Assembly (NCBI GenBank): GCA_002434245.1
Contig: DJJR01000073.1
Coordinates: 1-26,012, forward strand
Length of the DNA: 26,012 bases
Direction: 5' to 3'
Source of the DNA: Pelosinus fermentans
GTDB lineage: Bacteria > Bacillota > Negativicutes > DSM-13327
Positions 21,705 through 21,760 of the stretch are shown in pieces. The position numbers and the translations under genes were made by a program. The notes below the pieces were generated by a model, which saw only the letters and a program-made list of their open reading frames with translations, ran no database searches and was not told the DNA's origin. Position 1 is the stretch's first letter. Each line of letters begins with the position of its first letter.

Positions 21705-21734
21705 CCTCCAAAATTTTAAATAGAACTTTGAAGG
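21705..21734 (-). promoter_or_regulatory. Shine-Dalgarno-sequestering hairpin in the bglP leader
   Basis: CCTTCAAA (21734-21727) pairs with TTTGGAGG (21712-21705) on the minus strand, seven Watson-Crick pairs plus one G-U, and can extend with GUU/AAU to about 11 pairs. It includes the whole GGAGG of bglP. The CC of its 5' arm is also the closing CC of the RAT-like structure at 21727-21760, so the two folds exclude each other. Confidence 0.55.
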
Positions 21735-21760
21735 TTTGGCCAACTTAATGTCACCATCCA
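21727..21760 (-). promoter_or_regulatory. Variant RAT-like leader element, copy at bglP
   Basis: This 34-base sequence is identical to the one at 22810-22843. On the minus strand it can be aligned to the RAT: GG-AT-GG ... CC-AAA-CC replaces GG-AT-TG ... CA-AAA-CC, so the changed pair stays complementary. The inner TGA/G bulge and a short CA/TG upper stem also fit. It is not followed by a terminator but by the hairpin at 21705-21734. Confidence 0.6.

Follow-up and report, generated by a model that had tools for sequence, protein, structure and literature searches.

The BglG/LicT family serves as the textbook example of transcription antitermination by a protein, and the locus studied here raises the question of whether a member of this family could also govern translation. 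The window (the whole stretch of DNA analyzed, 26,012 nucleotides from Pelosinus fermentans) carries on its minus strand, in this order, bglA (GH1), licT, bglP and an esterase-like gene. An initial annotation, made from the letters of the window, had described a RAT-like element in the bglP leader that overlaps a hairpin on the ribosome site instead of a terminator, and had proposed that the antiterminator protein acts there on translation. We put the probability at about 0.85 that this element is a BglG/LicT-type RAT, that it and a Shine-Dalgarno (SD) hairpin, in place of a terminator, are mutually exclusive, and that active LicT would close the RAT and activate translation.

Two copies of a RAT-like element beside licT

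The bglP gene (19786..21696, minus strand) encodes a PTS IIBCA protein (PF00367, PF02378 and PF00358) and starts with the ATG at 21696; a longer open reading frame from 21711 was rejected, as its start would fall within the SD hairpin. Sequence, a pattern search of genomes and pair counts identify the 27-nt RAT-like element of its leader (21733..21759, minus strand), which reads GGATGGTGACATTAAGTTGGCCAAACC from 21759 to 21733. The last two C of the element begin an SD-sequestering hairpin (21705..21734, minus strand), in which CCTTCAAAGTT (21734-21724) pairs with AATTTTGGAGG (21715-21705) over 11 gapless pairs and closes on the GGAGG at 21705-21709. While this one element had been reported correctly, the initial annotation had overlooked an identical 27-mer before licT (22816..22842, minus strand, read from 22842 to 22816), which was found by pattern search. 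It is likewise followed by an SD hairpin (22788..22817, minus strand; arms 22810-22817 and 22788-22795, GGAGG at 22788-22792), here of 8 gapless pairs, and the 8 to 11 pairs first given for the hairpin, GGAGG included, hold with 11 at bglP and 8 at the second copy.

Ordinary RATs overlapping terminators were recognized by RF03530 and by folding before bglA (24431..24551, minus strand, RAT at 24497-24523; 31.3 bits) and before the esterase-like gene (19581..19709, minus strand, RAT at 19657-19684; 44.7 bits), the gathering score of the model being 80. In the window RF03530 matched these ordinary RAT/terminator sites only (E up to 5), below the gathering score and with the SD-type elements unmatched, and in the loci of six relatives it again matched ordinary RAT/terminator sites only (E up to 1), also below the gathering score.

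A cognate CAT-PRD protein is encoded nearby, with licT (21812..22663, minus strand; own SD at 22673-22680) sitting between the two elements. Its product belongs to the LicT/BglG family: it has a CAT_RBD domain and two PRD stretches, with His100, 159, 207 and 270, which we take to be the phosphorylatable PRD histidines, at the four PRD positions, and it matches the PDB LicT and BglG-family chains 1tlv, 1h99, 6twr and 1l1c, the CAT domain matching 6twr and 1l1c. Two further features of the window were recorded. Directly upstream of the bglP RAT, positions 21760-21774 form a perfect inverted repeat (ACAAAA TCG TTTTGT), and at 5345-5420 a GC-rich region containing a long inverted repeat (CGCAGAGACGCAGAGG...) gave a match to the miRNA model mir-1270 far below its gathering score.

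Conservation of the element and of the ribosome-site hairpin

Folding energy was unconvincing by itself, with z +0.30 for the RAT (115 of 200 shuffles fold as well), z -1.93 for the SD hairpin (8 of 200 shuffles as good) and z -1.38 for the two together (22 of 200), so that of the checks proposed in the initial annotation RNA folding contributes little and the comparison across genomes decides. In that comparison the 27-nt element of the bglP leader proved to be real and conserved. Its pairs are 1-27, 2-26, 4-23, 5-22, 6-21, 10-19 and 11-18, and its internal loops place A3 opposite A24-A25 and U7-G8-A9 opposite G20. This is the core of a RAT with its conserved internal loops; A3 faces AA in 35 of 42 distinct RATs and G20 is present in 42 of 42, a constancy that is partly due to the search patterns, which demand these bases.

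The RAT alignment (A1) contained 31 distinct 27-mers, 5 of the 36 distinct RATs having been left out as longer than 27 nt, and 99.5% of its RAT cells were paired. Among these 27-mers pair 5-22 occurs as GC, AU, UA or GU and pair 11-18 as AU, GC or UA. Both pairs change on both sides, and the compensatory change from U-A to G-C originally noted is that of pair 5-22. A wider sample added C-G at pair 5-22 and, in terminator-type elements of genus g65, A-U at pair 2-26. The covariation score of the RAT was 0.275 against 0.103 when shuffled, with 0 of 500 shuffles as high; neither the count of double-changed pairs (reached by 315 of 500 shuffles) nor that of pair types (71 of 500) was above the shuffles.

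The SD helix was examined in an alignment of all 44 unique SD-type leaders, made without reference to structure. The helix was paired in 94.8% of cells and scored 0.227 against 0.149, above 500 of 500 shuffles and above every slid version, and the subset of 37 leaders, with the seven porin leaders of genera g12 and g67 left out, gave 94.5% and 0.226 against 0.143. Here too the double-changed pairs (a count that 491 of 500 shuffles reach) and the pair types (58 of 500) were not above the shuffles. Double changes in the 44 leaders were found in the two innermost pairs only, and the SD-proximal pairs showed one-sided variation or none, as would be expected if the SD must stay. C26 and C27, which form the two C-G pairs common to the RAT and the SD helix, are invariant. 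The covariation of the two stems that the initial annotation had asked for is thus borne out by both helix scores, which exceed all 500 shuffles, and by the double changes at RAT pairs 5-22 and 11-18, the shared C-G pairs staying fixed.

The position of the SD helix relative to the RAT was also specific. With its start left free, the longest helix onto the SD began at C26 of the RAT in 43 of 44 leaders, the runner-up being 3 to 5 bp in 43. This test is to be read with the preselection of the 44 leaders in mind, which required at least 7 bp of helix beginning at the CC of the RAT. Of 37 element leaders with GGAGG, 33 had 9 bp or more of helix closing on that motif, compared with 4 of 85 other GGAGG starts at the same loci. 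These last four are the kind of case expected if the SD hairpin were constitutive, as a thermometer or mRNA stabiliser, with only incidental RAT overlap; the free start at C26, which holds across gene types and genera, argues against such a hairpin, and we regard it as extremely unlikely. In 42 of the 43 bglP and porin leaders measured (those of 52 whose match reached residue 1; the exception is a micro-ORF leader 364 nt from bglP), the distance from the end of the RAT to the start codon is 26 to 57 nt. A protein bound there would lie beyond the stretch that a ribosome usually covers and should therefore not clash with it.

Distribution and association with LicT

When up to 3 mismatches were allowed, the 27-mer was found in 10 of 150 genomes, including that of the window, and the reversed pattern in 0 of 150. 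A looser pattern was found in 33 of 380 genomes of the class, again including the window's own, compared with 4 of 380 for the reversed control, and the loci of 32 of the 33 were studied (G197 was left out). Selection by RAT sequence alone gave 55 unique elements, and behind 44 of them a helix of 7 bp or more runs from the CC to the SD. From 37 SD-type leaders a covariance model (R1) covering both the RAT and the SD hairpin was then built, and matches with E up to 1e-6 were counted as strong, those above being disregarded. R1 gave 98 strong matches in 39 of 380 genomes of the class (the window's own included) from 11 genera. By rule, 80 of the 98 were SD-type (34 genomes, 10 genera), among them the bglP element of the window, a share biased upwards by the training of R1 on SD-type leaders; 17 were not, and 1 was set aside as a degenerate RAT. 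Another element, partly outside the search pattern, was read by sight as SD-type. Near relatives inflate all of these counts, those of covariation included. Chance resemblance was rejected as an explanation.

The 80 SD-type elements were followed by bglP in 27 cases, by licT in 27, by a porin-like gene in 25 (two examples of which had no Pfam match) and by a gene of no assigned identity in 1; one of the 27 bglP genes is the one lying 364 nt away behind a micro-ORF leader. Among the 17 non-SD matches, G070 has the helix but lacks a usual start codon, and the helices in G256 and G319 are short. Seven of the 17 were folded, and all seven form terminators. The terminator overlap typical of a RAT is replaced by the SD hairpin in those 80 of 98 matches, the overlap principle being kept.

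These terminator-type matches bear on a second reading, in which the element would be an ordinary RAT with an effect on transcription only, and the SD hairpin a terminator that is weak or has decayed. Ordinary RAT/terminator pairs do occur in the same locus and, in relatives, before the same genes. The 3' arm of the helix, however, is an SD near a start codon in the 80 SD-type matches, a T-run within 12 nt past the SD was found in 0 of 52 SD-type bglP and porin leaders, and the pairing is preserved where the SD changes, as with the variants GAAGG, CGAGGG and GGGGG, and with CCTCC opposite GGAGG. Action on transcription only is considered very unlikely, and the decayed-terminator reading of the hairpin was rejected.

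Terminator-type and SD-type RATs also occur in tandem. Before one porin-like gene, a terminator-type RAT lies 107 to 109 nt upstream of an SD-type RAT (L059, 4064 and 4173; L061, 6285 and 6178), an arrangement in which transcription and translation would be gated in series. At bglP the two types also follow one another, terminator-type first, with a spacing of about 78 nt in several genomes of genus g12 and of about 100 to 120 nt in G323 and genus g60, and in some g65 genomes licT carries a RAT/terminator and the porin-like gene a RAT/SD. A different geometry was seen at bglP of g12 and g60 (L074 4493, L077 11831, L092 4366 and L093 4490), where the RAT lies within the terminator, forming a three-way fold with it (AAGCGGGAT ... 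ATCCACGCTT), as opposed to an overlap of the RAT's 3' end only.

The presence of the element was closely associated with that of LicT. CAT_RBD matches were found in 62 of 380 genomes of the class, that is, in 37 of the 39 genomes with strong R1 matches (partial in G020, G072 and G310) versus 25 of the 341 others (Fisher p 2.8e-32). Two element genomes, G070 and G243, gave no CAT_RBD match; these two (L097 2555 and L139) and G020 (L098 4582, a fragment) possibly hold orphan elements or a decayed licT. In a LicT tree of 60 rows, all 32 rows labelled as element genomes, a label that includes G250, G256 and G261 with no SD-type element by rule, fell inside one clade of 35 (support 100/100). The remaining three rows of the clade (G185, G230 and G269) come from genomes without strong R1 matches.

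In wider sampling, 398 genomes of the phylum were covered together with 197 of family f57. In this family, which belongs to a second class and had all 197 genomes searched, the exact 27-mer was found between licT and bglP in 7 genomes from three genera, followed by a hairpin on the SD, and on closure of the RAT P(unpaired) of the SD rose from 0.00-0.13 to 0.21-0.40. The LicT of this second class neighbours the element clade with weaker support (90/80). In two of the f57 genomes the licT leader, inspected by eye, has a RAT-like stem followed by a terminator-like hairpin. Second-class matches in G855, G805 and G951 were without a RAT-like core by pattern and were not counted. A purine SD-like stretch, AAGGAGG, with no obvious gene was seen upstream of the RAT, at a distance of about 17 to 21 nt, in several licT-bglP spacers (L174-L180, L058 and L060). 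Such a stretch might be a ribosome standby or mRNA-stabilising site.

A third reading holds that RAT-bound LicT represses translation, or that the element binds a different RNA-binding protein or an RNA. It would draw on the loop bases U12, U13, G16 and U17, which are invariant in the 44 aligned leaders, a greater loop invariance than known RATs should need, on the two element genomes without a CAT_RBD match, and on a second CAT_RBD gene in the window's own genome, which is distant in the LicT tree and whose product is a possible alternative binder of the 27-mer. Against it, the element tracks one LicT clade and its neighbour, and in genus g60 the upper stem-loop is long and varies in sequence and length with the pairing kept. 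Moreover, the bases that sequester the SD are those with which the RAT closes, and binding would therefore be expected to open the SD. We consider this reading quite unlikely, and activation of translation by LicT remains the preferred one.

The proposed switch, the licT leaders and known systems

In 49 unique leaders the SD had a mean P(unpaired) of 0.005, which rose to 0.43 on closure of the RAT, and the hairpin changed from -10.9 kcal/mol with the CC/GG pairs to -5.0 kcal/mol without them. The two freed G account for nearly all of the 0.43: RAT closure weakens the SD hairpin, part of which persists. For the bglP hairpin of the window the change was from -9.7 to -3.8 kcal/mol, with P(unpaired) going from 0.01 to 0.10, and for its licT leader from -7.7 to -1.8 kcal/mol, with P(unpaired) going from 0.01 to 0.50. 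P(unpaired) with the RAT closed also stays low in L066 (0.05) and L097 (0.06).

On the basis of these alternative pairings, the following course of events is proposed. Without active LicT, the last CC of the RAT would pair with the GG of GGAGG, and the hairpin would shut bglP and, elsewhere, the porin-like gene too. Sugar would activate LicT, which would close the RAT with GG on CC; the SD hairpin would then be short of its two strongest pairs and ribosomes could bind. The same LicT would also work at the ordinary RAT/terminator sites of bglA and the esterase gene.

At licT itself the SD serves a micro-ORF, which the initial annotation had not included. In the window this is ATG AAT AAA TAA (MNK, stop; 22768..22779, minus strand), located 8 nt past the GGAGG; its function is suggested by its counterparts in relatives. 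It is followed by a terminator-like hairpin in the interval before licT (22708..22754, minus strand; -14.3 kcal/mol, then TATTTTT), and the SD and ATG that belong to licT lie about 110 nt further downstream. With one representative for each genus, a start codon was found +7 to +9 past the freed SD in 7 of 9 genera (P 0.00016 by shuffling). In g12 and g67 the licT-leader ORF has exactly 10 codons, and it stops deep within the 5' arm of a strong terminator, the stop position in g12 being partly fixed by the stem sequence. The ORF reads on across the whole stem in g31, Pelosinus fermentans JBW45 (L032 and L058) and L135 of g60, and other g60 licT leaders have GTG-stop, with the stop codon 7 nt before the terminator arm.

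These layouts suggest a ribosome relay, which we hold to be reasonably likely. LicT would never touch the terminator of licT and would expose the SD of a micro-ORF, which spans one to twelve codons or reads on across the whole stem; the ribosome that starts there would cover the 5' arm of the terminator so that licT is transcribed. The same switch would be a direct translational activator at bglP in two classes and at the porin-like gene in one. In the window 13 nt separate the end of the micro-ORF from the terminator arm, which begins 33 nt past the GGAGG, and the relay step is thus weakest there; this micro-ORF probably stops too early to block the terminator fully. A double leader was seen in genus g81, where L064 (4520 and 4823) has a RAT/SD micro-ORF and terminator and then a second RAT/SD for bglP itself; in its counterpart in L065 the first RAT is degenerate.

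In the 2025 study of Clostridium acetobutylicum bglGTH, RATs take part in terminators, with bglG and bglT as examples in the portion available to us (PMC12628678), and stabilization of the antiterminator is the working mechanism of the Bgl/Sac family in the accessible sections of a review (PMC4347634). No report of translational control by a BglG-family protein was found in the literature searched, the coverage of which was partial, and the search returned nothing on PyrR in mycobacteria, a possible parallel. The action on translation put forward in the initial annotation is the best explanation of the data: the kind of system is known (a RAT with a CAT-PRD protein) and the target of its action appears to be new. 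Translational activation appears to be a new mode of action for the BglG/LicT family. The same RNA fold would be exchanged between terminators and ribosome sites in one regulon, which indicates how a regulator could move from transcription to translation by changing only the overlap partner of its RAT. Two predictions follow: beta-glucoside transport should be induced at the level of translation, and there should be a new type of attenuator, arranged so that an RNA-binding protein controls initiation on a micro-ORF.

The nearest known systems are the BglG/SacY/LicT RAT/terminator switches (RF03530). They have in common with the present element the core GG-A-UNG-UKA-C ... G-G-CNA-AA-CC, the protein family, a RAT 3' end overlapping an alternative hairpin, and an association with beta-glucoside genes; their alternative hairpin is a terminator, whereas here it holds the SD. 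In the tna and trp leader-peptide attenuators, a ribosome on a short leader ORF decides terminator formation. A ribosome on a short leader ORF would likewise decide the terminator in the licT leaders, although the gate here would be initiation of the leader ORF under an RNA-binding protein and not stalling or codon usage. TRAP of Bacillus subtilis, as described in the accessible sections of the review cited above (PMC4347634), is similar in that one RNA-binding protein acts on terminators and on ribosome-site accessibility. It differs in both protein and RNA target, and in those sections TRAP lowers expression, whereas the protein considered here would activate it.
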